This document shows positions 31,601 to 54,084 of a DNA stretch of 64,000 bases, piece by piece. Position 1 is the first letter of the stretch. The number at the start of each line of letters is the position of its first letter. The notes beneath the pieces are model-generated. The model searched no databases. It was not told where the DNA came from and worked only from the letters and a program-made list of their open reading frames with translations. Source of the DNA: Bacteroidales bacterium (lineage in GTDB: Bacteria; Bacteroidota; Bacteroidia; Bacteroidales; VadinHA17); assembly GCA_021738535.1 (NCBI GenBank), contig JAIPBU010000002.1:1-64000 (forward strand). The letters run 5' to 3'. The translations under genes and the position numbers were made by a program.

Positions 31601-33074
31601 TGAGATTGAAGGAAGAAAAGAGAAAAAGCGAAGCCCCCTGATTATTGCCGGTGAATATTTTGTAAGGGCATTGATGGGTATTCGTAATATTTCAGCAACC
31701 TATTCAGTAGACCAGGGCATGATACTCCCCGGGTATACGCCTGAAACAGAATACCTCGGAATGACAAGGCGAGGTGATGTTTTTGCTCCCGGCTGGGAGT
31801 TTATATCCGGATATAATGATCCGGGTTTCTTTAACCGGGCAATGAATAATGGCTGGATAACTACTGATACACTTCTTAACACAGCGGCTGCATCAATCAG
31901 GAACGAGACATTCAGTATACGCAGTACGGTTGAGCCTTTCCCCGGTCTCAGGGTTGATCTTACTGCAGACAGGCGGTTTGCACAATCTGAGTCAGCTTAC
32001 TTCAGGGCCGACAGGTTTGGTAATTTCCCTGACAGCCTGCGAAACAGGGTTGTGTCAGGGAACTTCTCAATTACAATATTATCCTGGGGTACAGCCTTTG
32101 AGAAGATAAGCGAGGATAACGAATATGTTTCTCCCACTTATGAAAAGTTTAAGGAGAATACGGTTATTATATCAAGGCGCAGGGCAGAGGAGAGGCAAAA
32201 GGTGGATCCGACATACAGCCCGGATATTGACCCTGAAACAGGAAATCCCATCGAGGGGGAATATAAAAACGGCTACGGAATGACCTCCCGGGATGTGCTT
32301 ATACCCTCTTTTCTGGCTGCTTATTCAAAAACTGATCCGGAAAAGGTGGGTCTTGATATCTTCCCCGGGATACTGTCTGTGATGCCTAACTGGAGAATTA
32401 ATTTTGACGGCCTGTCCAAGTTTGATCTTGTGCAGACAGTTTTCCGTTCTGTTAATATTGCTCACCAGTACAGAAGTACTTATACGATTGGTTCATATAC
32501 AACTAACCTGTACTATGATGAGGGAGAGGACGGGATAAGCAGGATCAGGGATCTTAATCTCAACTTTATACCTGAATATGAACTGAATGTGGTTACCATT
32601 AATGAGCAGTTCAGCCCGCTTTTTAATATCGATCTGAACTGGAAAAACAGCCTGACAACACGAATAGAATGGAAGAAAGCGCGTACGGTGAGTCTGAACC
32701 TTGCAAATAACCAGGTTGCCGACGTAAGGAACAATGAATTTGTTATAGGGGCAGGGTACCGTTTTGATGATGTGCAGATAATCCTTAAGACAGGAGGCAG
32801 GCGCAGGCCTTTAAGCAGCGACCTCAATATAAGGCTGGATTTCTCCATAAGGGATAATAAGACTATATCGAGAAAACTCATTGAGGATGTAAACCAGCCT
32901 GTGGCGGGACAGAGGATATTCTCGATCAGGACTACAGCCGATTATGTTTTGAGTGACAGGTTTAACCTGCAGGTTTTCTTTGATCATAACCTGAACGACC
33001 CTTTTGTAGCCACCACGTATACAACCTCGAACACAAATTTTGGCTTCAGTCTTAAGTTTACACTGATACAATAG
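25668..33074 (+). CDS. sprA: Type IX secretion / gliding-motility outer membrane protein SprA
   Basis: 2468 aa; MQLGINYNTEAMFDFENRTKLEYSGDEDEIIKKVEAGDVTLPL and GNSYIDDFEASEIPLDM are SprA-typical; next to ruvA and gcvH. Confidence 0.95.
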   Translation: MLRSGSVYSLPLLVLFTILSISGTVVKAQVVTPDTTVDLRYPFRDRSGIPWQKSSTSPLKLDMPSNFSSDVVYDPELNEYIFYEKIGNFDIRQPVHMSPEEYGDFVFEQSVRDYWRYKVTGDESFARRSLIPQIQFGGEAFDKIFGSNTIDIVPQGSAELIFGINISRTENPTLSEKLRTIPTFDFQEKIQMNVTGSIGDKMQLGINYNTEAMFDFENRTKLEYSGDEDEIIKKVEAGDVTLPLPGTLITGSQSLFGLKTEMQFGRLTVTNVFSQQKGESSTLEIKGGAQLNDYEVRADEYEANKHFFLSQYFRDIYNSAMKNLPVISSGVNIERIEVWVTNKTSNFEETRNILGLMDLGENQQHIYNEIPEFQSAPGAGPYPGNDVNRLYGRLSSTYTQTRDVDKITDAFSTFGDNFQIGTHYEKIENARRLTEREYNINRQLGFISLNVALNNDEVLAVAYEYTVGGKVYKVGEFSTDGISAPNALYLKLLKGTSLTPRLPTWDLMMKNIYALGAYQIERKDFQLHVLYKDDETGNAINYMPEGNLSDKILLQVLELDNLNGQLDREPDGVFDYVEGLTIDPSKGRLIFPVLEPFGEYLASQFADPALAERYAFTELYDSTQTKAIQSAEKNKFLISGTYSSASGSEIYLNAVNIPQGGVKVTAGGVPLTENVDYTVDYNAGRVKIINPALIESQTPIQVSLESNQFFGFQTKTLVGTHLDYRISDDFNVGGTILHLTERPYTQKVNFGEEPISNTIMGVNTSYRSEAPFLTRMVDALPFIETKDPSSITFFGEFAHLMPGHSRAIGASGNSYIDDFEASEIPLDMKTYNAWVLSSVPQGQDNLFPEARLNNDRRSNFNRSKLNWYVIDPLFLRNGSTTPDHIKNNADLQSSHFVREIYENELFPFKESPSGIPTNIAVLNLAFYPEEKGPYNFETTGSAYSSGINARGQLTSPESRWGGIMREILTSDFETANIQYIKFWMMDPFVEDQDHAGGDLYINLGNISEDILRDSRKSFENGLPISPDVVNVDTTSWGRVPTVQAVVHAFDNVPESRKYQDVGLDGMSNEDERSFFRSYLQELEGLVDQQTLEEITDDPANDDFHYFRGSDYDREQLGILERYKEYNGLEKNSPTAEMSAESYPTSGSTMPDMEDINRDNTLSETESYYQYRVSLRPEDMDVGRNYIVDEIEYTATLANGEQSAVKWYQFKIPVTDYSRVIGNIQDFKSVRFMRMFMRGFSENIILRLAKLDLIRAEWRKYNISFLEGGERVSIPEPDDGSFEISSVSIEENAGKEPVNYVLPPGFNRIIDPSNPQLRQLNEQSMALRVYNLEDGDARAAFKNVNLDIRQYRKLRMEVHGEEIIEEPIADDELTVFIRIGSDYKGNFYEYELPLKLTAPGYYNKDDDNDRAIVWPEENSFNIDLSLFQEAKQARNAEINSAGSTFSRSDIYVYPHNDARIKVSGNPNLSNVRVIMVGIRNPIKTRSSSNDDGLSKSAEVWINELRLSDFNEEGGWAANARLQTRLANLGTVDLVGQTSTPGFGSLEMKVNERSKEQVAKYDVSSTIELGRFFPEESGVSLPVYVGYSESHIQPEYNPVDPDIPFKDALENLEPEKRDSLKTIAEDFTRRKTITVSNAGINKQKEKSYPWDISNFSVNYTYNEVYRSNINTEINLEKNYRGGLNYYYDSNPENIAPLKNINLFRRKAFRLLRDFNFYLLPKHVGIRTDLNRYYSEVKTRNINNPYIKIKPTFRKDFEWTRFYDVKYDLTKQLKIDFTATNISRIDEPGGGVDRNRYPDRYEAWKDSVMINLQNFGRNTHYNHIINVNYNIPVNKLPLLGWLNSNLRYRASYDWLAGSLYPDSVNIDLGNTIKNSNTGQISAQANLTNLYNSSDFLKNIERNTRPGAAKRMKKEYRTVKYTRERLDFRAGESRNIYHRLGTEDVKVRVFRENGTEVKGKLEIISDIRVSYTTAEDVEDASIEIEGRKEKKRSPLIIAGEYFVRALMGIRNISATYSVDQGMILPGYTPETEYLGMTRRGDVFAPGWEFISGYNDPGFFNRAMNNGWITTDTLLNTAAASIRNETFSIRSTVEPFPGLRVDLTADRRFAQSESAYFRADRFGNFPDSLRNRVVSGNFSITILSWGTAFEKISEDNEYVSPTYEKFKENTVIISRRRAEERQKVDPTYSPDIDPETGNPIEGEYKNGYGMTSRDVLIPSFLAAYSKTDPEKVGLDIFPGILSVMPNWRINFDGLSKFDLVQTVFRSVNIAHQYRSTYTIGSYTTNLYYDEGEDGISRIRDLNLNFIPEYELNVVTINEQFSPLFNIDLNWKNSLTTRIEWKKARTVSLNLANNQVADVRNNEFVIGAGYRFDDVQIILKTGGRRRPLSSDLNIRLDFSIRDNKTISRKLIEDVNQPVAGQRIFSIRTTADYVLSDRFNLQVFFDHNLNDPFVATTYTTSNTNFGFSLKFTLIQ

Positions 33075-38444: not shown

Positions 38445-38465
38445 ATCAATTACCTATAATAAAAT

Positions 38466-38483
38466 AGGGGACTCAGGTCCCCT
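38466..38483. promoter_or_regulatory. Hairpin in the rimP-nusA-infB leader
   Basis: AGGGGAC-TCAG-GTCCCCT perfect 7-bp stem, 22 nt upstream of the rimP ATG on the minus strand. A minus-strand TACTTTTG -7-like box lies at 38512-38519. Confidence 0.5.
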
Positions 38484-38548
38484 AAGAAGTCAAACACCCC
38501 TCAATCGCTCGCAAAAGTAAGCATTAAATATGAAATACCCAAAAGCTT

Positions 38549-38609: not shown

Positions 38610-39329
38610 TCAAATGAATTTTTCTCTTTTCTGCAGGTTAAATAATCCCAGGAGCAGGAAAACAATTATTGAAATGAATAGTATAATCCTGTTATCCCGG
38701 ACAATGCCCTTCCAGGCAGTTTCGCTGATGTTCTCATTTATACTGAAAGGGTTCAGGAACACATTCCATTTGCTTGTTTCAAGTGGCTCCTGCAGTATTA
38801 AAAAGAACATTCCAAATATTATCATTAACACTGCTGTACCATTGCCGTTCTTAACCATGGTGGATACCATAAATGACATTACACCCAGGAAGAATACCGG
38901 GAACAGAACATGATAAGTTACTGCAAAAACAGGCATTTTAATTACGAGAAATGATGACAGGGCGGTGAAGCCAAGCAGGATAACAAAGGTAATAAGGTAA
39001 ATAAGTGCTATGCGAACAAGCCAGACTTTATACCTGTAATCGGGTATGCCGAACAGTATCTCTATAGTCCTGGCATCCTGGTCATTCTGTATTCCGAACA
39101 CGGTGGGGTAGAATACCAGCAGGATACCGCAGAAAACAAAGACGCCATACAGGTCTTCCACTCTTGATACCTGCTCTGAAAATACATAAATAATATTAAG
39201 CCCTACATAGAAAACAAGGGCCCCCAGCAGAAACCAGATAAACTTATTTGCAAAAATAATCTTCAGGTTATACCTGGTCATTCTGAGAATAATGTCAATT
39301 GTATTTAATATACTTTTAGTCCTGCTCAT
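38610..39329 (-). CDS. ABC-2-type transporter membrane subunit
   Basis: ~6 TM segments, FANKFIWFLLGALVFYVGLNIIY...; start overlaps the 3' end of the RND-ABC fusion gene by 14 nt. Confidence 0.8.
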   Translation of the reverse strand: MSRTKSILNTIDIILRMTRYNLKIIFANKFIWFLLGALVFYVGLNIIYVFSEQVSRVEDLYGVFVFCGILLVFYPTVFGIQNDQDARTIEILFGIPDYRYKVWLVRIALIYLITFVILLGFTALSSFLVIKMPVFAVTYHVLFPVFFLGVMSFMVSTMVKNGNGTAVLMIIFGMFFLILQEPLETSKWNVFLNPFSINENISETAWKGIVRDNRIILFISIIVFLLLGLFNLQKREKFI

Positions 39330-42300
39330 CTTGCACTTTCATTTTATTCTTTCTCAGCAACCACAGGTATGAGTCTTCAAGGTTTGGATTTACCTCAATA
39401 GCATCTTTATGTGGCTTTGTTGCAGATATACATCTTACCCTCACACTACCTTTTTCAGACATATGATGTACTATAAGTTGCTCATTTGAAACTTTCCGGA
39501 ACTCAGAGCCGGGAATACTGAACTGCCATACCCTTCCTTCAGCTTCTTTTGTCATTGCACCTGGATGCCCAAGGTATTTAAGCATGCCTTTATCAAGTAC
39601 AGCCACATTATTGCATGAGCTCGATATGTCTTCTATTATATGTGTGGAAAAAATAACTACTCTTTCGCGGCTCAGTTCAACAAGCAGGTTCCTGAATCTT
39701 ATTCTTTCACGTGGGTCAAGTCCTGCCGTTGGTTCATCTACCACAAGTATCCTGGGAAGGTGCAGCAATATCTGTGCTATTCCTATTCTCTGCTTCATCC
39801 CACCTGAATATGAGGATATTTGCTCATCCTTTCTTTCAAACATATGTACGGCATCAAGTACATATTTAACTCTTTCGTTACGAATATGCCTGTCAGATAT
39901 ATTTTTCAATATTGCCTGGTGGTGCAGAAATTCCTCGGCAGTCATGTTTTCATAGCTGCCAAATTCCTGGGGAAGGTAGCCAATCAAACCCTGTAATTCT
40001 TCTCTTTTCTCGGCTACATCCAGACCGTTAATCCATATCTTACCGTAACTCTGATCGAGAATACCACAGATTATCCTCATCAGGGTAGTTTTTCCTGCAC
40101 CGTTTGGTCCAAGCAGCCCGAACATTCCTTTACCAATCTCCATGGAAACCCCTCCCAGGGCCTTAAAGGGTTTTCTTACTTTGCCGATCAGGGGTATACT
40201 GATAACTAACTTATAATATGCTTTTCTTAGTTTCCTGTGCTTCCCTTTCAGCCTGTAAATATCGGTTCCTTTCTCGTTGAGCTTTCTTCCTGTATACCAT
40301 ATTGCCAGGAGCATGTACCATATTGCTCCAACTACAATAACAGACGCAATATTATCCCATTTGAAGAAGAAGATTATAAGGTTCAGCAGCGGTGCAATCC
40401 ATAAAACAATTGCGTTAAGAACCTTTCTTATGACTGGTCTGATCCCGGTGTTTTTGTTCATCACGCCGGAAAGGGGATTCCATATCACAATAAGCATTAA
40501 CCAGCTGATGATGCTGAAGAAGAAGATCCAGAAATTCTTTTCAAGATAGAAATATGTAAAATATACAAGGAAGCCCATTAAGGGAATCTGCCATATGTAT
40601 GTATCAAGATCTCGCATTGAGTCAGGCTCTTTTTCGAAACCCAGTCTCTGCCGTATTTTTTTACCGGCTTTCCATTCTCTTACCATCCTGGGATCACGGT
40701 CATAAATTTTCACAAGGCTCCTGACAACTATTTTTATTGGTTCATTCCTGTCTATTACCGTTTCACGTGCTTTTCTCAGGCTTGTTTTAATGAACCATGT
40801 GACTGCAGGCACCAGGATTATTGCCAGTATGGTTGTTATCAGCTGCCACATGAACCTGTGGATGTTAAAGTATATAAGAACTATTGCTAACACAAAGGAT
40901 ACCGCCATGGCTGTCTTTATTTTCCAGTTCCGGGATTTGATCCACGAAATTGAATTTTCCAGCCCGGTATAAAATGTTGGAATAAAGACAAGGGTTAACA
41001 GCGTGCTTAAGGCCAGACCTCCTATTACGGTAATGGCAAATGATGCTCCAATTGTTGAGGCATATTCTGACTTGCCCATTGCAAGGGGCATTAATGCTAC
41101 TATTGTTGTTATGGCAGTTATCAATATGGGTCTCACCCTTGCCAGTCCGGCTGTCATGAGGGCCCGTGATCTGCGGTACCCTTTTTTTCTCAGTATATTT
41201 GAATAGTCGATTAATATTATTCCGTTATTGACAACCACACCAAGCAGTATAAGGAATCCGGTTAAAGTATTGGCATTGAGCAGTGAGTTACCTGTGAGTA
41301 TAAGAATCAGCAAGGAACCCAGGGCTGCCAGGGGAATTGAAAGCATCAGAACAACGGGTGTGCTCAATGATTCGAAAATCGCAGCCAGTATCATGTAAAT
41401 AAGAAGAAAGGCAATTGCAATGAGATAATAAAAATCTTTCAGCTGGTTTTCTTCATGTACAACTTCAATCGCTATACCGGAGGGTATATTAATATCAGAT
41501 ACAAGTTGGTCTATTTCTTCCCGGGCACTTTCAAGGAGAGGTTTGGAATCGTTTATCTCATCGTTAAACCTGTATGTTAACGTTATACTCTTTTCCTGGT
41601 TTTCACGGTGGATATTGCCCATGCCGTAGGAAAAGACTATAGATGCAATTTGTTGCATTTCAGTAACGTTGCCACTGTTACCTTCTACGCGGAGGCTTTG
41701 CAGATCGTCAATACTTTTATATTCCTCTTTATCATCTTCCTCACTATCATACTTGATAATTATGTCATATTCATCATTCCCCTGCCTGAATTTCACTCCT
41801 GTTGAATGTTCAGGCTGAAAGGAGGCAAGCTCCTGCGCCACATTGGCCATGCTGATATTATTGCGACTCATTAACCCGGTATCAAAATTGAGCAGGACCT
41901 CAGGGGTATTGTCCTGTATGTTTAAGCTGACCGAGCGTATTGTAGTAAGGTCTTCCATATAATACTCAAGGTCATCAGCAATATTCCTCATTCTTGTGAA
42001 ATCCTGCCCTTTAATAATAATACTCTCAGTCTGTGTGCCAATACCAAGCATTCTCGTAAAACTCTCTCCCGGGTTGGAACCCCCGCTGCCTCCTCTCATG
42101 GAGCCGCCTGATGATGAAATATCATTCATACTGATTTCAGTATCACCGAAATCATTTGTCCGTTCGTAGATATCATTTTTTATTTCGCTGAGCTTACGGT
42201 TACTATCATCCTCCCAGTCTTTTTTGAGTTTTACCGTAATTGTAGCCTGGTCTTCTTCGATCTTTGATATTATGTCTCCCCTTTCAGGTAGATTATCCAG

Positions 42301-44046
42301 CCTTTTTTCAAGCTCCGTTACCAGTGCATCCGTTTTTTCAAGTGTTGATCCCGAAGGCATTACAATATTAACGGGAAAACTGTCAGTTTCAATTTCTTCC
42401 AGTTTATTAATGCTAAGGCCCAGTCCTATCAGCAGTGCTGCAAAGAATACAACTAGAGCGCCTATAATAGTTGTTGCAGGTTTCCGCATACTTGCTTTAA
42501 GAATAAGCAGGTATGATTGAATGAGCCGGTCGTGGATGGATAGCTTTTTAAAAATACGGGATCTGCTGTTATCCGACCATGACAGCAGGTGATGTGTTGC
42601 CATTGGGATAAGAAGCAGGGCTACCATCAGGGAGACCACCAGGGTTGAAATAATGGAAACGCCAATGTTTTTACCTATTATCTTTACAAGGAAATTATCT
42701 GAAAACACAAATGGGAGGAAAACGGTTATAGTAGTAAGAGTGGCCGCTATTACCGAGCGGTACACTTCTCGTGTTCCTTCCTTTACTGACCGGTCGCTGC
42801 CAGCCCCGCTGCCGGCCAGCCGGTAAATATTTTCAAGGACAACAACAGAATTATCTATAAGCATACCTATGGCGAGAGCCATGCCCACCAGGGTAAGGCT
42901 GTTTACAGTTATACCGGCAGCATAGAAAAAATTAAAGGCCGTAAATACGGAAACCGGTATTGAGAAGGCAATAATAAAAACAAGCCTCAGGTTGCGGAGA
43001 AAAAACCATAATATAATTACTGCCAGGAGTCCTCCCACAAGGGCAAGGTTAATTATCTGGTCTATATTTTTCTCCATCACCTCGGCGTTATTACTCTGTA
43101 CAACAACCTCCACGCCTTTAGCTTCCAGGTTGCTGTTAAGCTCATCTATAACATCCAGGGTATGGTGAGACAGGTCAATAATATTAGCCTGGTTATCGTA
43201 AACAAGGTTTATTGTGACGGCATCCAGCCCGTTTACACGGCTGTATGATTCTTCTTCGCTCACCCCGAAAAATATTTCTGCAACATCTCTTAGGAGTACA
43301 GGCCCGGACCGGTCAATTATAATATTACCAATTTCCGTAACGTCAGAATATTCAGCAGAGACATTTACAAAATACCTTTTCCCTGATTCATATACATTGC
43401 CTGCAAAGACCCGGTCATTACTGTTGGAAGCAATAAGTGATCTTACCCGGTTCATTGTGATTCCTTTTGCCCTGCAGGCTTCCTCATCGAGCCTGATCTC
43501 AATAGAACTTTCCCTGCCTCCGAATACTTCAACGCCTGCAATGCCATCAATATTTTCCAGCTCAGGTTTAATATTTTTATCTGCAATATTCCTAATCCTG
43601 TCTACCCCGCCGCTGCCACGTACCTGGAGATCCATAAACTGGCTGTTTATCTGCTCAAGGTCTATCTTGATTATGTTGATAATAAACTCTTCGGGCAGGG
43701 TGTTTGATAATGCATTTACCTTTTCCTGCAGTTTGAGGTATGAATATTTAAGGTCTGCATTCTGACGGTAATATATCATTACCATACCATACCTGGATGT
43801 AACTGTTGATTCTATCTTTTCAACATCATCAAGTGTGCCAACAGCTCCTTCCACAGGGATCACAGCCTGGTTTTCAATATAGGAAGGATCTACATCCAGC
43901 ATTGAGTTTACCTGTACAATGAGGGTGGGGAGCTGGGCATTTGGATACAGTTCAACCTGTAATTGCTGGTATGAAATATAGCCAAGCAGTGTCAGCCCAA
44001 TAAAGAGCATGCTGATGAGGGTCTTTCTTTTTATAATAAAATCCAT
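39316..44046 (-). CDS. RND (AcrB/HAE-type) efflux permease fused C-terminally to an ABC transporter ATPase
   Basis: 1576 aa in one frame. RND portion has GMALAIGMLIDNSVVVLENIYR and two TM/porter halves; a TM-rich linker follows; then an ABC domain with GLLGPNGAGKTTLMR (Walker A, ~40081-40126), SSYSGGMKQRIGIAQ and ILVVDEPTAGLD. Confidence 0.92.
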   Translation of the reverse strand: MDFIIKRKTLISMLFIGLTLLGYISYQQLQVELYPNAQLPTLIVQVNSMLDVDPSYIENQAVIPVEGAVGTLDDVEKIESTVTSRYGMVMIYYRQNADLKYSYLKLQEKVNALSNTLPEEFIINIIKIDLEQINSQFMDLQVRGSGGVDRIRNIADKNIKPELENIDGIAGVEVFGGRESSIEIRLDEEACRAKGITMNRVRSLIASNSNDRVFAGNVYESGKRYFVNVSAEYSDVTEIGNIIIDRSGPVLLRDVAEIFFGVSEEESYSRVNGLDAVTINLVYDNQANIIDLSHHTLDVIDELNSNLEAKGVEVVVQSNNAEVMEKNIDQIINLALVGGLLAVIILWFFLRNLRLVFIIAFSIPVSVFTAFNFFYAAGITVNSLTLVGMALAIGMLIDNSVVVLENIYRLAGSGAGSDRSVKEGTREVYRSVIAATLTTITVFLPFVFSDNFLVKIIGKNIGVSIISTLVVSLMVALLLIPMATHHLLSWSDNSRSRIFKKLSIHDRLIQSYLLILKASMRKPATTIIGALVVFFAALLIGLGLSINKLEEIETDSFPVNIVMPSGSTLEKTDALVTELEKRLDNLPERGDIISKIEEDQATITVKLKKDWEDDSNRKLSEIKNDIYERTNDFGDTEISMNDISSSGGSMRGGSGGSNPGESFTRMLGIGTQTESIIIKGQDFTRMRNIADDLEYYMEDLTTIRSVSLNIQDNTPEVLLNFDTGLMSRNNISMANVAQELASFQPEHSTGVKFRQGNDEYDIIIKYDSEEDDKEEYKSIDDLQSLRVEGNSGNVTEMQQIASIVFSYGMGNIHRENQEKSITLTYRFNDEINDSKPLLESAREEIDQLVSDINIPSGIAIEVVHEENQLKDFYYLIAIAFLLIYMILAAIFESLSTPVVLMLSIPLAALGSLLILILTGNSLLNANTLTGFLILLGVVVNNGIILIDYSNILRKKGYRRSRALMTAGLARVRPILITAITTIVALMPLAMGKSEYASTIGASFAITVIGGLALSTLLTLVFIPTFYTGLENSISWIKSRNWKIKTAMAVSFVLAIVLIYFNIHRFMWQLITTILAIILVPAVTWFIKTSLRKARETVIDRNEPIKIVVRSLVKIYDRDPRMVREWKAGKKIRQRLGFEKEPDSMRDLDTYIWQIPLMGFLVYFTYFYLEKNFWIFFFSIISWLMLIVIWNPLSGVMNKNTGIRPVIRKVLNAIVLWIAPLLNLIIFFFKWDNIASVIVVGAIWYMLLAIWYTGRKLNEKGTDIYRLKGKHRKLRKAYYKLVISIPLIGKVRKPFKALGGVSMEIGKGMFGLLGPNGAGKTTLMRIICGILDQSYGKIWINGLDVAEKREELQGLIGYLPQEFGSYENMTAEEFLHHQAILKNISDRHIRNERVKYVLDAVHMFERKDEQISSYSGGMKQRIGIAQILLHLPRILVVDEPTAGLDPRERIRFRNLLVELSRERVVIFSTHIIEDISSSCNNVAVLDKGMLKYLGHPGAMTKEAEGRVWQFSIPGSEFRKVSNEQLIVHHMSEKGSVRVRCISATKPHKDAIEVNPNLEDSYLWLLRKNKMKVQDEQD

Positions 44047-44052
44047 ATCCTT

Positions 44053-47000
44053 CTACCCGGCTTGAGTTGTTAAACTATTCTTTTTTCCTGCTATTGATTC
44101 CTTAAGGCTGTCGAGCAACCAGTATACGCAGGGTATAACCACAAGAGTCAGTATGGTTGAAGTTACCAGTCCCCCTATAACCGCCAGGGCCATTGGAGAC
44201 CTGAGCGATGCACTTTCACCGAAACCAAAGGTAAGTGGGAGAAGGGCAAGTATTGTTGTGAGACTGGTCATTATGATAGGTCTTATACGCTGGCTTCCTG
44301 CCTCAATGATGGCATCCTTTCGCTTTCTTCCTCCTGATCTGAGCTGGTTTATCCTGTCGATGAAAATTATTGAGTCATTGACGGCGATGCCCGCAAGCAT
44401 TATTATGCCTATGTAAGCCATAATATTCAGTGACTTACCCATCAGATAAAAAATCCATACTGACCCGACCGCCGCCAGTGGTATGGTAAGTAATATAACG
44501 AAGGGATGAACGAGCGATTCAAACTGTGATGCCAGAACCATATAAACCAGTATAATGGACAGTATAAGAGCAAAGGTCAGGTTTTCCATAGATTCTTTGC
44601 GCCTCAGTTCATCACCGGTGATAAGCGTTGAGTAATCGGGGGGCAGGGTAAGCTGGTCAAGTATCATATTTGTTTCATCAACAACCCTGTCGAAAGCTAC
44701 TTCCTCGTTAACCATTGCATATATATAAGATGTTCTGACCTGGTTGTTCCTGTTGATTTCACGTGGAGCCCTTACCTGTTTTATTTCTGCAAGCTCACTT
44801 AATGGGAGTGAAGCTGATCCTGCATCAATGAGAATACTCCCAAGGCTTTTAAGCGGCAGCTCTTCAAGCCTGACGCTAATGTCCTTCATTTCTCCTCCCT
44901 GCTCAAATTCGCCCGCATCCGAGCCGCTCAGGTAATCCCTGACCTGGCTTATTATGCTTTCAACCGTTACCCCGTAAAAGCTGGCCCTGTACCGGTCTAT
45001 AACAACATCTACCTCGGGTGTCCCTTCATCAAGTGAGCTTGTGATGTTAAAAACAGTTGCCAGTTCTGACATTTTAAGCCTGATCTCTTCCGTGATTTTT
45101 TCAATCTCATCCAGGTCTTCCCCGTGTACTTCAACAACCAGGGGTGCTTTAGCGGTACCAAGTGTTGTTTGCAGGGCTGTTTCTTCCCTGGTGAAACTTA
45201 TTTCGGCATCCCTGATATTCTCAAGTTTTTCCTGTAGCCTGTCAATTATCTTATCTGTTACTTGTGCATATTCTTTTGCCAGGAATACTTTTATTGTTGC
45301 AGTATTTTCATCCCTGAAAAGGTCAGACTCATTTGATCCCGTTGTGGTTTTCTGACCTGAGTGGGTGTAAATCATTGCCACCCTGTCGCCCAGCATGCCA
45401 TTAATGATTTGTTCAATTTTTTCTGCTGTTTCAGCCGTTCGTTCAAGTCGTGTACCTTCTTTTAGTTTAAGCTCAATTGAAAACTCGGATGACTGGGTAC
45501 GGGGCATGAATTCGCTTCCTACACGTGGCAGTATGTATGCAGTTGCTCCAAGAAGAATTAGTGATAAGATTATCACCAATCCTCTTGCATGCAGAATTTT
45601 TTCAAGCCATGCTCCATACCACCTGAAGCTGACAGATTTTTCTTTCCTTTTTTCCTTTTTTTCACTGAAGAAGGTTGTAACAAGAAGGGGTATAACCAGT
45701 ATGGCAACAAAAAGGGAGGAAATTAGTGAGAAAGCAACAGTCCATGCCTGGTCCTTAAAGAGTTCGCCTGAGGCCCCCTGCAGGTAGACTATTGGAAGAA
45801 AGACAACTATTGTGGTAATGGTTGAGGCTGTAATAGCCCCTCCAACCTGTGCTGTTCCTGAAATTGCTGCTTCACGCAATGGCATTCCCGATTCATAATT
45901 CCTGAAAATATTTTCCAGGACGACAATTGCATTATCCACCAGCATGCCGGCTCCCAGTGCCAGTCCTCCCAGGGTCATAATGTTGATGCTCAGGCCGTTG
46001 AAATACATCAGGTTAAAAGTTGCGATTATTGAAACGGGAATTGCTATGCTTACAACCAGTGTTGTTCCGATACGCCTGAGAAAAATAAACAATATAAAAA
46101 CTGCCAGTATTATACCAATAAGTGCTGTTTCTTCAACTTCACCAATAGCCTGGTCAATAAACTGACCCTGGTCCTGCACGTTGATAAATTCATAACCCGG
46201 CAGGGCACTCTTCAGTGTTTGTATTGATTCTTCAAGTTCCTCTACAGCATTTACAGTATTGTAACTTGGCTCTTTGTAAACAGACAGGGCCACGCATCTT
46301 TCACCGTTAATAGTAACTATGTTGTCTGGATCCTTGTTAACCATTGAAATGTCAGCAACATCGCCCAGGTAAACCGGCACTCTTTCTGCTGCATCCAGTG
46401 TTTCTGCTGTACTTCCTGCCTGTGATCCTTCAGCAATTTCCCGGTAGCCCAGGATAATCTTTTCAAGGTCAGAGATATCTTCAATAACACTTACTCCCTT
46501 CACAACGTATTTTGTACCCAGGTCGTTGATAGAGCCTCCTGATACATTCCTGTTGTAACTGCTTATTTTCTGAGAAATGTCACCGGTTGACAAGCCAAAG
46601 GATTCAAGCATATACCTGTTGGTTTGTATTACCACTTCGCTCTCCTCATGCCCTGATAACTGGATATCAGCTATTCCTTCCAGTCTTATGAGTTCATTCC
46701 TGATATAGTTTTCGGCTGTTTGCCTGAGTTCATCCATATCAGTTATTCGTTGGTGCCTCAGGCCAATTATCATAACCGGACTTGCATTGGGATCATACTG
46801 GGTAATATTGAATTCATCAAGGTCAGCATTCTGGCTGAATGAACTTATATCTTTCTGCAGATCAAGGAATGCTTCATCCATATCCTTATTCCATGAATAT
46901 TCAACTATTACCTGCGCAGTTCCAACCATTGATACAGAGGATACATTTATTGCATCCTTTTGTCTCATGGCAATGGCTTCAACCTGGTCTACGAACTGTT

Positions 47001-47184
47001 GCTCCATTTCTTCAGGAGGGCGCTCACCTGCCTGCAGTTCTATATAAATCCTGGGGTTGTTCAGATCCGGGAAAAGATTTGTTCCCAGTTTACCGAATGA
47101 TATTACTCCAAGCAGGATGATACCGAGTACCAGCATTAAAACTGTTACAGGGTTATCAACTGCAAATCTGGCTATTTTCTTCAT
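44053..47184 (-). CDS. RND (AcrB/HAE-type) efflux permease
   Basis: MKKIARFAVDNPVTVLMLVLGIILLGVISFGKLGTNLFPD; GGLALGAGMLVDNAIVVLENIFR; 1043 aa. Confidence 0.95.
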   Translation of the reverse strand: MKKIARFAVDNPVTVLMLVLGIILLGVISFGKLGTNLFPDLNNPRIYIELQAGERPPEEMEQQFVDQVEAIAMRQKDAINVSSVSMVGTAQVIVEYSWNKDMDEAFLDLQKDISSFSQNADLDEFNITQYDPNASPVMIIGLRHQRITDMDELRQTAENYIRNELIRLEGIADIQLSGHEESEVVIQTNRYMLESFGLSTGDISQKISSYNRNVSGGSINDLGTKYVVKGVSVIEDISDLEKIILGYREIAEGSQAGSTAETLDAAERVPVYLGDVADISMVNKDPDNIVTINGERCVALSVYKEPSYNTVNAVEELEESIQTLKSALPGYEFINVQDQGQFIDQAIGEVEETALIGIILAVFILFIFLRRIGTTLVVSIAIPVSIIATFNLMYFNGLSINIMTLGGLALGAGMLVDNAIVVLENIFRNYESGMPLREAAISGTAQVGGAITASTITTIVVFLPIVYLQGASGELFKDQAWTVAFSLISSLFVAILVIPLLVTTFFSEKKEKRKEKSVSFRWYGAWLEKILHARGLVIILSLILLGATAYILPRVGSEFMPRTQSSEFSIELKLKEGTRLERTAETAEKIEQIINGMLGDRVAMIYTHSGQKTTTGSNESDLFRDENTATIKVFLAKEYAQVTDKIIDRLQEKLENIRDAEISFTREETALQTTLGTAKAPLVVEVHGEDLDEIEKITEEIRLKMSELATVFNITSSLDEGTPEVDVVIDRYRASFYGVTVESIISQVRDYLSGSDAGEFEQGGEMKDISVRLEELPLKSLGSILIDAGSASLPLSELAEIKQVRAPREINRNNQVRTSYIYAMVNEEVAFDRVVDETNMILDQLTLPPDYSTLITGDELRRKESMENLTFALILSIILVYMVLASQFESLVHPFVILLTIPLAAVGSVWIFYLMGKSLNIMAYIGIIMLAGIAVNDSIIFIDRINQLRSGGRKRKDAIIEAGSQRIRPIIMTSLTTILALLPLTFGFGESASLRSPMALAVIGGLVTSTILTLVVIPCVYWLLDSLKESIAGKKNSLTTQAG

Positions 47185-47217: not shown

Positions 47218-48270
47218 TTACTTGAGGATTTTCACCCTGGCATTATGACTCAGTGTTTCAAAGCCATCGCTTACAACCCTTTCATTTGGTTCCAGGCCTC
47301 TCAGTACCTGGACTGATTCATTATTTTCAAGGCCCGTTTGAATAACTCTTTCCCGTGCCACACCTTTTTCAACAACAAAAACCGTCATTCCTCTTTGTCT
47401 TGAGAGGATAATATCTTTGGGTATTACTATGGCTGAATCAGCCCTGCTGGTTATTATGTCAGCTTTAACAAACATTCCCGGCCTGAGCTTTAAGCCCGGG
47501 TTGTTTATTTCTATTTTGCCTTTAAATGTTCTTGTTTCAGGGTTTATGGCCGGCGAAAGCTGGCTGATACGGCCATTCAGGGTGTCACCGGGCAGTGCAT
47601 AGTTTGTTATCCTTACCTCTTTGCCGGTACTTATATCATTGATATATCTTTCAGGAAGGTTTATATCAAGCATCATTTTCTTGTAATCCATTAGCCCTGC
47701 TATGGTTTTTCCGGTTTCTATTTCTGATCCCTGTGTGTAGTAGGGTAACCCGGTTATAACAGCATCAAAAGGAGATGTAATATTCATTTTTTCCATCTGT
47801 ATGCGGGCATTCTTTACTGAAATCTGGGCATTGGCATAATCATAACCGGACTGCTTGAGGTCGTTAAGCGTAACCCCCCCCTTCTCATACAGGGATTCCT
47901 GCTTTTCAAGTTTACTTTTTGCAAGCTCAAGGTTTAGTTCATGTAACTCAAGCTTGACATTGTTTTCATACTCCTCATCCTCAAGACGTGCTATCAGCGA
48001 GCCTTTACTGACCCTGTCGCCCAGTTCCCATTTCCTGCCTGTAGCCGGGTTTTCTTCAAGGTAATACCTGGCAGGTATTTCTGATTTCAGCTCAACATCA
48101 ACAACCGGGTACACAGTGCCGGTTGTATTTATATATTCTTCAATAGATTTCAGTTTAATATCATCTACCGATACCGGTATTTCTACATCGGCTTCCAGGC
48201 CAGGGTCCTGGTTGTTGCATCCCGTAATAAGGATGAATAATAGTGCCGGAATGATCAATTTTATTTTCAT
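47218..48270 (-). CDS. Efflux RND periplasmic adaptor (membrane fusion protein) lipoprotein
   Basis: Lipobox LITGC; lipoyl/hairpin and ITSPFDAVITG motif; immediately upstream of the RND gene. Confidence 0.93.
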   Translation of the reverse strand: MKIKLIIPALLFILITGCNNQDPGLEADVEIPVSVDDIKLKSIEEYINTTGTVYPVVDVELKSEIPARYYLEENPATGRKWELGDRVSKGSLIARLEDEEYENNVKLELHELNLELAKSKLEKQESLYEKGGVTLNDLKQSGYDYANAQISVKNARIQMEKMNITSPFDAVITGLPYYTQGSEIETGKTIAGLMDYKKMMLDINLPERYINDISTGKEVRITNYALPGDTLNGRISQLSPAINPETRTFKGKIEINNPGLKLRPGMFVKADIITSRADSAIVIPKDIILSRQRGMTVFVVEKGVARERVIQTGLENNESVQVLRGLEPNERVVSDGFETLSHNARVKILK

Positions 48271-48284
48271 GATATGATTATGTT

Positions 48285-49754
48285 TTATAATTCTGTATTG
48301 TTGTTTTCATTTTCAGTGCTTACAGGCTGTTGAGCTTCAAAATCGTAGAGTGTCTGTATCTTCAGGTTAAGAAGCTCAAGCTTATATGATATCAGAGCAT
48401 TGGTAAGTGCCAGCTGTTTTTCGGAAAGCTGGTTCTGGTAAATGTTGAGATCCATTCCTGTAAGATCGCCGTTTTCGTATTTCTCAAGATTGAGCTCATA
48501 TGTCAGCTGTGCATTCTTCACATTCTGTTTTGCAATCTCAATCTGATTCTTAAGGTTTGTAAGGTTCCTGTATACCTTGCGGATATTGATTATAATATCA
48601 TTCTCCTCCTGCTCATAATTGATCCTCTGTGATTCAATGGATGCCTCTGCAGCCTTGATTCGTGATTCTCTTTCTCCCCAATCCCACAGGGGGATGGAAA
48701 AGGAGAGTGATACCTGCTGGTTATCGGTAGGGCTGGCATAAATATTACCTAAATTTTCATTATCACCGAATAAGCCCACAGACAGGTTCAGGTCGCCGTG
48801 AAACTCATTAAGCGCCTTTGTTTGTATAAGTGAGAACTCAGAATTTTCAATATCAATCTCTCTCTGCCTGAGCTCCATCCTGTTTTTAAGTCCGTGATCA
48901 AGGGCAAATGCAATATCCACGTCTACAGTGTCAACACTTATATCCGGGATTACAATTACATCATCATACAGGCTCATGCCAATAAGTAGTTTAAAATCAT
49001 CTTTGGCATCCTCCAGGCTAACTCTCTGGTTATCCACATCGGAGTTTGATGTAGCCAGGTTCAGTTCAGCCTGGAAGAGTTCTTCCCTGGCCGACAGGCC
49101 CGCATCAACCTTGTTTTTTATGATCTCATAACTCTTCTTCATGTTCTCATAAGCTTCCTTCTCAATAATAAGGCTTTGCTGCTGCTGGTAAACCAGGTAG
49201 AAATACTGGGCTACCTGTCTTTCCAGTGACAGCCTCTGTATTGCATAGTTAAGTCTTGAGTTTTCCAGTGCCAGCTCAAGCTCCTTGATCCTGAGCTTAG
49301 TACGGTTATAGGTAAAGAGGGGCTGGTTGATATTAAGTGAAAGATTATTACTGAAACCTTTCGTTCGTGTATCATTGTATTCACTGTAAGAATTTTGCCA
49401 TGACAGTGTATTTGTAAGTGAAATTGTTGCATCGGTAGCAACAATGGGCTGAGAAATCCTGAATGTTCCCAGGCTGGATGTGGTCTCCCTCGTATTCCAT
49501 TGTGAAATAAGATCATTAAACTCCCTGTTGTGTGTGTAGCTGAAAGGGTTTATTGACAATGAAAAGTTGGACTTAAGAGCTGCTCTCTGAGCATTAAGAT
49601 TTTCTCTGCTTCTCTCCAGGTTGAGCCTTGTCATTTTTATGGACGGGCTGTTCTCTTCTGCAATTGCCATTGCGGATTCAAGAGTAAGTCCCTGCTGTGC
49701 ATAGATCCCCATAAAAAGGCAGGATGTAAATACTATTAAAACTATTTTTTTCAC
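48285..49754 (-). CDS. TolC-family outer membrane efflux protein
   Basis: Signal peptide ending YAQ; two OEP repeats (SLSINPF..., LSLSFSIPLWDWGERESRIKAAEASIESQR). Confidence 0.93.
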   Translation of the reverse strand: MKKIVLIVFTSCLFMGIYAQQGLTLESAMAIAEENSPSIKMTRLNLERSRENLNAQRAALKSNFSLSINPFSYTHNREFNDLISQWNTRETTSSLGTFRISQPIVATDATISLTNTLSWQNSYSEYNDTRTKGFSNNLSLNINQPLFTYNRTKLRIKELELALENSRLNYAIQRLSLERQVAQYFYLVYQQQQSLIIEKEAYENMKKSYEIIKNKVDAGLSAREELFQAELNLATSNSDVDNQRVSLEDAKDDFKLLIGMSLYDDVIVIPDISVDTVDVDIAFALDHGLKNRMELRQREIDIENSEFSLIQTKALNEFHGDLNLSVGLFGDNENLGNIYASPTDNQQVSLSFSIPLWDWGERESRIKAAEASIESQRINYEQEENDIIINIRKVYRNLTNLKNQIEIAKQNVKNAQLTYELNLEKYENGDLTGMDLNIYQNQLSEKQLALTNALISYKLELLNLKIQTLYDFEAQQPVSTENENNNTEL

Positions 49755-49772: not shown

Positions 49773-52700
49773 TTAATTATACATATTTTGCTTAACCCAT
49801 TTAATGGCATCTCCGTTAACGGTTCTTCCTTCTGAGCTGTTTGTAAGAATTACTCTTGCAGAGTCAGGAGACAGGTAATACGATCCAAGATGGTTCCAGC
49901 CGTTATCTGCATTTTCCCAGTCCACTATAACATCTTCCTCACCGTCATCATGCTCAACTGTAAAGTGCAGGTCTTTCATCGCATTCCTTCCGCCTCCCCT
50001 GTCAGCAGTCATCCTGCCTCCTCTTTTGCCTATGTATGTGTATACGTCGTAATAACCGGGCTGATCAATACTGGCTGTCCAGCTTACATGTCTCTCACCC
50101 TTGCCCGCCCTGGTGTATACAGCTGATTTGACATATTCACCGTAATAATTACTCCTGATTGTCTTTTGCCAGTATTCAGGTGCCCACCATACAAACATTT
50201 CCCTGTAGTCACTTCCCTGTTCGGAGCCTATATTAAGCCATTGCTTCAGTCGGCCCGATGATAATTCCTGGTAAATACGGAAGCCAGGATCTTCATTATC
50301 CACTATTGTTTCATTTGACTCATGCATAAGTGGCAGCTTGTCCAGCACTTCTTCATTTTCAGTATTTTCATCTGTTTTACCTTCCATAGCATCCATAAGA
50401 GGAAACTGCAGCTCTCCCGGGTTATTCTTTGAAAACAAAGTATTTATTATCATTGCCCTTGGCTCAGCATCGAGTATAATACTTATCCTTTTTGCCTGCT
50501 CTGCATCAAGCATAATAATTTTTTCGGGATCGTCTGCCTGCATATTACTACCCGTCATCCCCATGCGCAAACTGCCTCTGCCGGATGCATTCATAGTGAT
50601 AGAAACATTACCACCCCTGCCTCCACCCGGGCCTCTTCCCCCTGTACGGAAAGATGCATTGAAGATTCCGGGTGTGCTCTCAGGGTTTGATGCCGTGAAA
50701 TTAACCCTGTACCTTGTTCTGTTACCAACAACAACCTCGTTTACAGAAATGTCGGTAAAAAGAAAACCTGGTTGACCAACGCCCTCATACCAGTTATCGA
50801 TATGGGCAAACAGGTCAAATCCAAATCTTTCTTTCAGATCCCTGCTGAACTTATTTATATCAATGTTACTGAACTGATTCTGTTCGAGGTAAGAGTAAAA
50901 CCAGCCGTTGAATTCTTCGATACCTGCTTCAGCCCTCATGAGGTTAAAAAGGTAATCTCCTTTTAATGAGAGGATTATGCTTGTGGTGTCGTTTGAGGGA
51001 TTCATTGCCAGTATATCTTTCATGCTGTGCTCACGCAGAATTGTGTTTGCTTTGTCGTTTTCAGTCATTCCCCCGAGGAACATCCTCTGAAAGCCGGATT
51101 GTGGAGTCTCCGTTTTTTGCAGGTGGGTTTCAAAAACAGCATTTATCACCGGGTACTTTTCTGAGTAAAAATTGTTTTTATAAAAATAGAAACTGGGCCC
51201 CAGCAGGTATCTGCCACGTACCTGTGTGCGATCACCTCCCCTGTTAAACCTGAATTCAGAGCTCGTTATAAAAGTATTCCTGACAAAATTATTGAAAGCC
51301 CTGACCTGTATCTCCTTATCAGTTATTACCTGGTTGCTCCTTTCCATTCTTTTCTTCTGCCTTTTAATGGTCCGGTAGAAGCCTGCATCATTCATGGTTG
51401 CCAGCTTCTCAGGGACAAATATCATTGATGGCTGAACCTCTGCTCTTGTCTGTGTGTTTTTCTTCTCAACGGAATTAAAATGTACGGGTACCTCGACAAG
51501 GCTTAAACTGCCAAAGGGATATTCTGCGTTGAAATTTGTCTCCAGCTCGGTAATAATACCTGATATCAGGTGGCCTATTGTATCATTTAATTCCTTGAGA
51601 TCATCCCTGAAATAATCGTGCCCTTCGTAGTAGTGGGCAATAAAATCAATTGAATCAACTGTGATAGTATCACTGCTGTATTTCCCCTGTGCCAGGCTCA
51701 GTCCTGTTAAAGGGCTATTATTCATGAAATACCAGTAGTCTTCATCAGATGACCTCTCTCCCTGGGAAACTGCCACAAGCTTATTGTTGCGTTTTACTTT
51801 GAGACTGTAATTGGTAAAGTCTACATCAATCCTGGCGGGATTGTCCGGGTAATAGTTTAAACCGGATACCGGGTACCAGTGGGTTTCCGGAGTGAGGAGG
51901 AGATACTCATCTCTTTGTATCACATGTTTTCTGTCTACTCTCACAGGGCCTATGCTGAGGCTGTTTTCTTTTATGTCATCCGTGTACCAGGGATAACAGA
52001 ATGCCTCTTCTATTGATCCGTTGTATTTAAAAGAAATGTTTATTGATGAATCCGGGGCAAGCGGAGAAGATGGATTTATTGTTATAATATGACCATCAGT
52101 ATTATAAGTGCCTGTGCCCTCTATGTCTATATTACTAATCTTAAGACCGCTGTTAAGGGAGAACAAAATCTGTTCTACTTCTTTTCCTGTATTGTTGCGA
52201 CAACTAAGATTTGCAATGGCCTTTATCTCTTTGTTCATGTATTCAATTTCAATATCTGCCGAGGTGGTCTCCAGGAAATTGCTGCCCTGGTATAGCCTGT
52301 TGGTCTCAATTACTTCATGTTTGAGTTTTTCATCACTGAAGTAATCGTTCAGGAAATAGAAAGCTGAAAAAGCTGAAATAACTGCAAACACAATAACCGA
52401 GGTAATGGAAATTAAACGATGGCTTACTGATTGTGGCAGTCTCTTAAACATTAAGATGGTAAGGGAAATAAACAAAAGGCCCAGTGAAGTGTACATTATC
52501 CTTTGCGAGACTATTATACCCGGCTCACTGAAACCCGATATTGTCGATTTAAATACGGGAAAACCGAAGAGCATATAATCAAAAAAGGAGTTCAGCCTGT
52601 TAAAAAGGTAGAACATATTAAGAGCGGCAAGTCCCAGGAGTAAGAGGAAGGTAACAGCCTGGTTTTTTATAAGTGTCATTAGTATGTAAGCAAGACCCAG

Positions 52701-53183
52701 GCTGAATATCAGTGTGGGGATGCTTATAAGCAGGATATATTCGAAGTAGGCTGCAATATCGATAGATGCCTGTGGTGAAATAATGTTTATTATAAGGCAT
52801 ATTAACAGCACCAGAAGGTTTACCCCCAGAAAAAGCCTTAAAATACCGAGCGTTTTTCCGGTAATATATTCCAGGTTCGACATTGGCCTTGTATATAGAA
52901 CTTCATTGGTATCCAGCTTTTTGTCTCTTTTCAGAAAGTCGGAGGCAAGGAATATTACTATAAGCGACTGGGCAATATTTATCATGTACAGGTTGATCTG
53001 GGGCAGTGTGGAGGGTATCGCAAGTGTCTGCCATGCTTCATTCCCTACAGGGCTGAACATGCCAATATTCATGAGAGTAAGAATAAATAGGGCTCCCAGG
53101 GAGAATAGTCTGAAAAGCCAGCTGCGGCGAAGGGTTTTTGCCTCATACCGGGCAACTGTCCTGATGTTGTGTACGGAGATCAT
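49773..53183 (-). CDS. ABC-2-type permease with M1-peptidase-like extracytoplasmic region and C-terminal golvesin-like domain
   Basis: 1136 aa. N-terminal permease TMs; a middle region as in permease/M1 fusions but with no HExxH in the translation; C-terminus AVYTRAGKGERHVSWTASIDQPGYYDVYTYI...YYLSPDSARVILTNSSEGRTVNGDAIKWV is golvesin_C-like. Confidence 0.75.
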   Translation of the reverse strand: MISVHNIRTVARYEAKTLRRSWLFRLFSLGALFILTLMNIGMFSPVGNEAWQTLAIPSTLPQINLYMINIAQSLIVIFLASDFLKRDKKLDTNEVLYTRPMSNLEYITGKTLGILRLFLGVNLLVLLICLIINIISPQASIDIAAYFEYILLISIPTLIFSLGLAYILMTLIKNQAVTFLLLLGLAALNMFYLFNRLNSFFDYMLFGFPVFKSTISGFSEPGIIVSQRIMYTSLGLLFISLTILMFKRLPQSVSHRLISITSVIVFAVISAFSAFYFLNDYFSDEKLKHEVIETNRLYQGSNFLETTSADIEIEYMNKEIKAIANLSCRNNTGKEVEQILFSLNSGLKISNIDIEGTGTYNTDGHIITINPSSPLAPDSSINISFKYNGSIEEAFCYPWYTDDIKENSLSIGPVRVDRKHVIQRDEYLLLTPETHWYPVSGLNYYPDNPARIDVDFTNYSLKVKRNNKLVAVSQGERSSDEDYWYFMNNSPLTGLSLAQGKYSSDTITVDSIDFIAHYYEGHDYFRDDLKELNDTIGHLISGIITELETNFNAEYPFGSLSLVEVPVHFNSVEKKNTQTRAEVQPSMIFVPEKLATMNDAGFYRTIKRQKKRMERSNQVITDKEIQVRAFNNFVRNTFITSSEFRFNRGGDRTQVRGRYLLGPSFYFYKNNFYSEKYPVINAVFETHLQKTETPQSGFQRMFLGGMTENDKANTILREHSMKDILAMNPSNDTTSIILSLKGDYLFNLMRAEAGIEEFNGWFYSYLEQNQFSNIDINKFSRDLKERFGFDLFAHIDNWYEGVGQPGFLFTDISVNEVVVGNRTRYRVNFTASNPESTPGIFNASFRTGGRGPGGGRGGNVSITMNASGRGSLRMGMTGSNMQADDPEKIIMLDAEQAKRISIILDAEPRAMIINTLFSKNNPGELQFPLMDAMEGKTDENTENEEVLDKLPLMHESNETIVDNEDPGFRIYQELSSGRLKQWLNIGSEQGSDYREMFVWWAPEYWQKTIRSNYYGEYVKSAVYTRAGKGERHVSWTASIDQPGYYDVYTYIGKRGGRMTADRGGGRNAMKDLHFTVEHDDGEEDVIVDWENADNGWNHLGSYYLSPDSARVILTNSSEGRTVNGDAIKWVKQNMYN

Positions 53184-53187
53184 TGGT

Positions 53188-54084
53188 TTAGATTTTTAAG
53201 CTTAATCCCTTTGTTTTGTGCTCCATGTAATATACATAGGCATGTTCAAGGTTTGGTTCTATTATTTTGCCGTCAAAGCCGGGGGATTCGTCAGCTACAA
53301 CCTGAGCATCCCATCCCATCTCACTGGGCATGGAAGAAATAATATGTAACCTGTCTTTAATTTCGTCGTATTGTTCCTGTGTAAGGCTCAGGTTAAAGAC
53401 GTGACCTTCTGCAGCTCCGGTTAATTCAGAAGGAGATCCCGAAAAAATCATCTCACCTCTGTTCAGAAGGGCCATTTTCTGACATGTTGATGAAATGTCA
53501 CCTACAATATGTGTTGACAATATAATGGTTACATCATTCTGGCTGAGATCAGAAAGTATATTCCTGAACCTGATCCTTTCATCGGGATCAAGACCTGTTG
53601 TTGGTTCATCCACAACAATAATCCGCGGGTTGCCAATCAATGCCTGGGCAATGCCCAGTCTCCTTTTCATCCCCCCCGAGAGTTTGTTCGCCTTTCGGTC
53701 ACGTACTTCTAGCAGACCAACCCTGTCAAGCAACTCATCAACCATGTTGATGCGCTCTTTCCTGTTTCTGATCCCGGCAAGCGATCCTGCATAATCGAGA
53801 AATTCCCAGGTCCTGAATCGTGTGAAGAATCGAAAATCCTGCGGAAGGTAACCAAGGTATGAGCGTAACTTCTTCCTGTTTTTGCGGATACTCTCTCCGT
53901 TTATCAATACATCACCTGATGATGGTTTCATAAGTGCCACCAGCACTTTCATAAGTGTTGACTTGCCTGCACCGTTCGGACCAAGAAGACCGAACATCCC
54001 TTCTTCAATAAGCAGGTTGATGTTTTTTACGGCATGATTACCGTTCCTGTATACTACATTAAGATCATTAATTTCGATCTTCAT
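53188..54084 (-). CDS. ABC transporter ATP-binding protein
   Basis: GLLGPNGAGKSTLMK, LSGGMKRRLGIAQAL, IIVVDEPTTGLD; 4-nt gap to the permease gene. Confidence 0.95.
   Translation of the reverse strand: MKIEINDLNVVYRNGNHAVKNINLLIEEGMFGLLGPNGAGKSTLMKVLVALMKPSSGDVLINGESIRKNRKKLRSYLGYLPQDFRFFTRFRTWEFLDYAGSLAGIRNRKERINMVDELLDRVGLLEVRDRKANKLSGGMKRRLGIAQALIGNPRIIVVDEPTTGLDPDERIRFRNILSDLSQNDVTIILSTHIVGDISSTCQKMALLNRGEMIFSGSPSELTGAAEGHVFNLSLTQEQYDEIKDRLHIISSMPSEMGWDAQVVADESPGFDGKIIEPNLEHAYVYYMEHKTKGLSLKI

Follow-up and report, generated by a model that had tools for sequence, protein, structure and literature searches.

An RND permease and an ABC ATPase joined in one conserved Bacteroidota protein, encoded in an operon that may specify a two-stage exporter

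One polypeptide of a Bacteroidales bacterium unites a full RND permease with a complete ABC ATPase, and its gene lies in a seven-gene operon that, on balance, we read as encoding a single composite envelope exporter. RND pumps run on ion-motive force, whereas ATP powers ABC transporters, and the two are studied as separate classes. The stretch of DNA analyzed, here called the window, comprises 64,000 nucleotides (contig JAIPBU010000002.1, positions 1 to 64,000). The fusion gene is one uninterrupted frame, as an earlier note made from the letters of the window had read it. Both domains are complete: Pfam ACR_tran covers residues 2-1027 (E 4e-164), i.e., a full-length match as in HAE-type RND permeases, and ABC_tran covers residues 1299-1441 (E 1e-27). 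The Walker A, signature, and Walker B motifs recognized in that note are all present; the fused ABC domain carries Walker A GPNGAGKTT, the Q-loop Gln, SGGMK, the Walker B Asp-Glu, and the H-loop His, and these motifs are invariant in 30 orthologs except for one S/T in Walker A. Foldseek matched the domain to ABC ATPases (E 1.6e-17). The frame begins 6 bases past the stop codon of the gene for an ordinary RND permease (RND1), and its 3' end is overlapped by 14 bp by an ORF of 239 aa (38610-39329). The chain is divided as follows:

39316..44046, minus strand: RND-ABC fusion protein, 1576 aa in one frame, single-frame in relatives too
40957..44046, minus strand: RND permease part, residues 1-1030 (from the ACR_tran match)
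40765..40926, minus strand: extra transmembrane (TM) hairpin, TM13-14, residues 1041-1094 (hydropathy; AlphaFold helices H12-32 and H36-65 in the model of residues 1030-1576)
40702..40731, minus strand: predicted strand beta-1 and A-loop Tyr1115, residues 1106-1115, VVRSLVKIY region (modeled strand E77-86, profile gain, invariant Tyr)
40168..40701, minus strand: predicted insert within the ABC domain, spanning residues 1116-1293; TM15-18 lie at about 1153-1259 (hydropathy, AlphaFold)
39319..40167, minus strand: rest of the ABC domain, residues 1294-1576, with beta-2, Walker A, signature, and Walker B (Pfam ABC_tran, Foldseek)
40084-40110, minus strand: Walker A of the fused ABC domain
39793-39807, minus strand: signature of the fused ABC domain

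That a sequencing or assembly error lies behind the fusion is very unlikely. The earlier note had named a stop codon or frameshift between the RND and ABC parts as the point to be checked, and the same uninterrupted chain recurs in relatives and isolates: single frames of ~1500-1640 aa occur in the genus, in the family, in other families, and in seven isolates, by which an artifact of sequencing, assembly, or frameshift was ruled out. In a search of 40 relatives, the linker-ABC part was found with 76-77% identity in all three other genomes of the same genus searched, and with 54-69% elsewhere in the family, in other genera. Among named genomes, a scan detected the fusion chain on 29 contigs. 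The isolates, in which the frame is 1567-1592 aa long, are Draconibacterium mangrovi, Prolixibacter bellariivorans, Bacteroides faecichinchillae JCM 17102, Bacteroides sp. 224, Parabacteroides massiliensis, Marivirga sericea DSM 4125, and Maribellus maritimus. When the order was sampled evenly, a match reaching into the linker was present in 40 of 295 genomes, and in a sample of the phylum in 6 of 395 (the bacterium's own genome included in both). The fusion was also found in two MAGs labeled Zixibacteria and Latescibacterota; misbinning is possible for the former, and the chain in the latter is divergent (36-37%). The architecture, for which the note had suggested a database search, is widespread in sequenced Bacteroidota; a characterized homologue of the fusion was not found.

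In a phylogenetic tree, the fused ABC domains form one clade (SH-aLRT 99), so the fusion probably arose once. An unfused version was present in none of the genomes examined, from Bacteroidota to the Zixibacteria and Latescibacterota MAGs. The ATPase-only matches in the order's other genomes belonged either to two-gene ABC-2/M1 systems or to operons truncated where a contig ends, and no intermediate was found among them. An apparent split version in one assembly (G005), with an ORF of 454 aa, was rejected because it results from an N-filled assembly gap and not from biology. This run of N (L044:6118-6217), which makes the fusion look split, calls for caution in automated surveys.

The TM-rich region at ~40200-40950, taken in the earlier note for a linker of the two halves, is more than that, as the ABC domain appears to start within it, at residue ~1106 (~base 40731). 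Between the RND part and Walker A lies the motif I.I.NLVKIY, the Tyr of which is invariant in 30 orthologs, and which resembles the first strand and A-loop of ABC domains (compare IEINDLNVVY, which starts the operon's free ATPase). The position of this missing start was assessed with a profile from 47 contiguous ABC ATPases (obtained by genome scan), against which the remaining fused ABC domain was scored with each 14-residue segment of the linker, taken every two residues, placed in front of it. Piece 1102-1115 gave the highest mean profile gain (+8.4 bits, vs 3.1 for the next region) and was the best position in 30 of 30 orthologs, which are related and do not constitute 30 independent tests. 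An AlphaFold model of residues 1030-1576, based on a 30-row alignment (pLDDT 82, pTM 0.66), contains a strand at 1106-1115, then helices including four long hydrophobic ones, and a second strand at 1294-1304. Since all other strands of the model belong to the ABC domain, the isolated strand 1106-1115 would have to pair within that domain. The distance from the A-loop Tyr to the Walker A Lys is 193-231 residues in the 30 orthologs vs 29 in the free ATPase; a contiguous N-terminal beta subdomain, with the A-loop ~30 residues before the Walker A Lys, is therefore lacking in the fused ATPase.

The insert itself is not constant. In two genomes of one family (L148 and L149), its first two helices are absent and only two TM helices are left, while the motif is kept; two other genomes (L146 and L147) have a longer hydrophilic loop. 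TM helices are thus lost in pairs and their number stays even, as is expected if both pieces of the ATPase must be cytoplasmic. By profile and model, it is well supported that an insert with two to four TM helices divides the fused ATPase, which would mean that membrane helices can be accommodated by the ABC fold between its A-loop and second strand. A published description of an ABC ATPase cut by membrane helices was not found in the open-access literature searched. The structure of the insert also bears on the notion that the fusion merely secures co-expression, with RND and ABC parts working independently, a passive membrane linker between them, and a homotrimer carrying three ATPases. This notion, which the completeness of each half (recognizable alone) and the strong variation of parts of the insert in length and sequence would suit, is rather unlikely, given that an insertion inside the ABC domain is unlike a passive linker, that no genome examined has the unfused version, and that the fused ABC domains form a single clade. 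Processing of the fusion into two proteins within the cell was also considered.

On the minus strand, the order of the genes is ATPase, ABC-2/pseudo-M1 permease, TolC, membrane fusion protein (MFP), RND1, RND-ABC fusion, and Perm2. Beside the fusion gene, the operon comprises:

53188..54084, minus strand: free ABC ATPase, 298 aa (P0002), first gene of the operon (Pfam ABC_tran E 3e-32, motifs intact)
49773..53183, minus strand: protein of 1136 aa with an N-terminal ABC-2 membrane domain, an M1-aminopeptidase-like periplasmic part, and Golvesin_C (Pfam in orthologs)
48285..49754, minus strand: TolC-type outer membrane factor, 489 aa (Pfam OEP E 3e-53)
47218..48270, minus strand: periplasmic adaptor/MFP, 350 aa (NCBIfam RND_mfp above cut-off)
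44053..47184, minus strand: RND1, ordinary unfused RND permease, 1043 aa (Pfam ACR_tran E 1e-217)
38610..39329, minus strand: Perm2, probable ABC-2-type membrane domain, 239 aa, beginning inside the fusion gene (AlphaFold/Foldseek)
38465..38484, minus strand: terminator-like stem-loop, 8 pairs then TTTTATTATA (consensus scan, not by itself proof of function)

The stem-loop, between Perm2 and rimP, likely marks the end of the operon. All seven genes occur in the same order at the loci of 10 relatives, and the last six at 23 of the 29 named loci, the remaining ones being cut by contig ends; in 28 of the 29, Perm2 lies directly behind the fusion gene. The flanks of the operon vary, and rimP-nusA-infB follows downstream only in the window and near relatives. 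Both an MFP and an outer membrane factor, the companions of HAE-type RND permeases, are part of the operon.

Itself aside, the fused ABC domain has its closest relative of the same genome in the free ATPase (40%). The free ATPases of the operons also form one clade (SH-aLRT 100; tree), and the fact that each of the two ATPases constitutes a single clade indicates that both co-evolved and have long traveled together within the system. The ORF starting inside the fusion gene had been noted as an ABC-2 partner of the fused ATPase; its ABC-2 type is supported by its fold. Perm2 has no Pfam match, and one ortholog matches ABC2_membrane_4 (6e-4). Its AlphaFold model (pLDDT 89) was best matched in Foldseek by PmtCD, NosY, and ABCG membrane domains, at weak E-values of about 0.006-0.1; ABC-2/type V membrane domains made up the top matches, and no different fold occurred in the first 33. 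A Perm2 profile did not match the operon's other ABC-2 domain, and a sequence search of solved structures returned nothing. By this fold match at weak E-value, Perm2 is assigned a predicted ABC-2 fold. Orthologs of the 1136-aa protein match ABC2_membrane_2 in 9 of 12 cases (best E 2e-7), Peptidase_M1 likewise in 9 (best 5e-6), and Golvesin_C in all 12. ABC-2 membrane domains are thus encoded with the ATPases (family match for 49773-53183, weak fold match for Perm2), and two ATPases plus two membrane domains amount to the parts list of one ABC exporter.

The HExxH zinc motif is absent from 12 of 12 RND-linked orthologs of the 1136-aa protein and intact in those ABC-2/M1 relatives without an RND operon that were checked; the M1-like domain of 49773-53183 is a predicted pseudo-peptidase tied to the RND context. 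Outside the operon, the nearest relatives of the ATPases in the phylum are often encoded beside a gene for an ABC-2/M1 aminopeptidase of ~1200 aa. These two-gene Bacteroidota systems share the layout of ABC-2 and M1-like domains, and their ATPase is 41-44% identical to the fused one, but they have no RND, MFP, or TolC, the ATPase is contiguous, and HExxH is intact. It is plausible that a transporter of the ABC-2/M1 kind was recruited to an RND operon, that its peptidase activity was lost, and that one ATPase was joined to the RND. Another fusion of this ATPase group was observed in a different Bacteroidota genome (L150:1922-5896), a protein of 1324 aa encoded beside an ABC-2/M1 gene, in which ~1000 residues without Pfam match precede a C-terminal ABC ATPase (1045-1189).

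Lipids, glycans, and peptides are common cargo of type V ABC transporters. Loss of HExxH in the RND-linked copies, with its retention in the RND-free relatives checked, would accord with a device for envelope assembly or secretion of such compounds, as opposed to a small-molecule efflux pump, in which the inactive M1-like domain and Golvesin_C act in the periplasm as the receptor of one dedicated substrate. Across the loci, however, the operon is not accompanied by any biosynthetic or cargo gene, and its patchy presence in the order (the 40 of 295 genomes) argues against an essential envelope function. Such a device, which is compatible with the composite exporter with respect to mechanism and differs from it in cargo, appears quite improbable.

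RND1 is 28% identical to the fusion's RND half. Known heterotrimeric RND pairs, encoded by tandem genes, share about 50% (PMC10872679), and MdtB2C sets the precedent for a 2:1 heterotrimer from tandem genes (PMC4462101). The operon resembles that of MdtBC-TolC (E. coli, HAE-1) in its tandem RND genes with an MFP, its proposed 2:1 heterotrimer, and its TolC-type exit, but MdtBC has no ABC parts and no C-terminal extension, its RNDs are ~50% alike, and its relay reads DDK and not DNN. Residues D407, D408, K940, R971, and T978 of AcrB correspond to D, N, N, R, and T in both the fusion (D398, N399, N940, R970, and T977) and RND1; D407, R971, and T978 are kept, whereas D408 and K940 are both Asn, so that the AcrB proton relay is incomplete. 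Asn occupies the K940 column in 28 of 28 aligned fusion orthologs. The earlier note had described this half as a proton-motive-force transporter; it is a full RND permease, but its use of protons is not a given, and AcrB-type proton coupling of both RND chains is not certain.

Whether the missing D408 and K940 specifically mark an RND driven by ATP was considered, and the idea was rejected: the relay pattern recurs in another RND of this genome, and no conclusion was drawn on the energy source. This also weakens the proposal of a regulatory role, or clutch, for the fused ATPase, which would gate the RND trimer by ATP or nucleotide instead of powering an ABC export step. Joined covalently to the RND, and with membrane helices before and after its A-loop, the ATPase would be suited to conformational signaling, and D408 and K940 are indeed missing. 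Nevertheless, every ATPase motif, the signature and H-loop among them, is invariant, ABC-2 domains are always found in the operon, with Perm2 right behind the fusion, and the Asn pattern recurs in an unrelated RND; a clutch is considered unlikely.

We lean, with some reservation, toward the seven genes encoding one composite two-stage envelope exporter (ATP and proton), of which we infer assembly, pairings, stoichiometry, coupling, energetics, direction, and substrate. The two ABC-2 domains (the N terminus of 49773-53183 and Perm2) would assemble with the two ATPases, free and fused, into a heteromeric type V ABC transporter, and RND1 would assemble with the RND half of the fusion into a heterotrimer, for which MFP and TolC would provide the conduit across the outer membrane. 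The fusion chain would be the physical bolt between ABC exporter and RND pump, the TM helices flanking the A-loop holding the fused ABC domain at the membrane and unable to drift from the RND. In the first stage, substrate in the cytoplasm or inner leaflet would be moved at the expense of ATP to the inner membrane's outer face; in the second, the adjoining RND would pick it up there and expel it via MFP-TolC using ion-motive force. The earlier note had envisaged the fused ATPase energizing Perm2 and thereby tethering it to the RND trimer; Perm2 does lie downstream, but the second ATPase, the second ABC-2 domain, and the second RND had been missed. It had also raised the odd stoichiometry of three ATPases on one trimer. 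The operon's second ATPase and second RND favor another arrangement: pairing of the fused ATPase with the free one is more probable than three copies of it on a homotrimer. A trimer of RND1 and fusion in a 2:1 ratio, as in MdtB2C, would carry one tethered ATPase, matching the one free ATPase, and the puzzle of three ATPases per trimer would be removed if it is so assembled. In favor of the composite exporter count the single frame with intact catalytic motifs, the invariant gene order, the two ATPase clades, the two ABC-2 domains, the tandem RND genes, the split ABC domain, and the two-gene relatives. Counted against it were the 28% RND identity, Asn at D408/K940, the weak E-values of Perm2 and the failure of its profile to match the other ABC-2 domain, and the pTM of 0.66. 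The stricter version, a new transporter class in the form of an obligate chimera in which the shared chain bolts the ABC exporter to the RND heterotrimer, ATP and ion-motive force act in succession along one path, and ABC and RND cycles are mechanically linked by the membrane insert beside the A-loop, is put forward tentatively, as somewhat doubtful.

Every part of the system is of a known kind; their combination would surprise a transport specialist. A search confined to open-access literature yielded no description of an RND-ABC fusion or of the seven-gene operon. Among exporters of the NosFY/PmtCD/ABCA type, the fused ATPase comes nearest to ABCA and NosF in both sequence and fold, and Perm2 to PmtCD and NosY in fold; here, unlike in those, an RND permease shares its chain with one of the ATPases, which TM helices split between A-loop and beta-2. 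MacAB-TolC is likewise an ABC-driven tripartite efflux system with MFP and TolC (PMC8277102), but the MacB ATPase is fused to its own permease and there is no RND subunit. A conserved chain of RND and ABC permits a direct test of whether primary and secondary transporters can be coupled in one export path. The system can further be used to probe how a tripartite pump receives its substrate from a flippase of the inner membrane, and whether fixed-stoichiometry RND heterotrimers are commoner than thought. With homologues in culturable Bacteroides, Parabacteroides, Prolixibacter, and Marivirga, it is testable. Elsewhere in the window, an LpxC-FabZ-type fusion (56708-58105) holds LpxC and FabA-like domains in one chain, and a very long ORF of 2468 aa occupies 25668-33074 on the plus strand.
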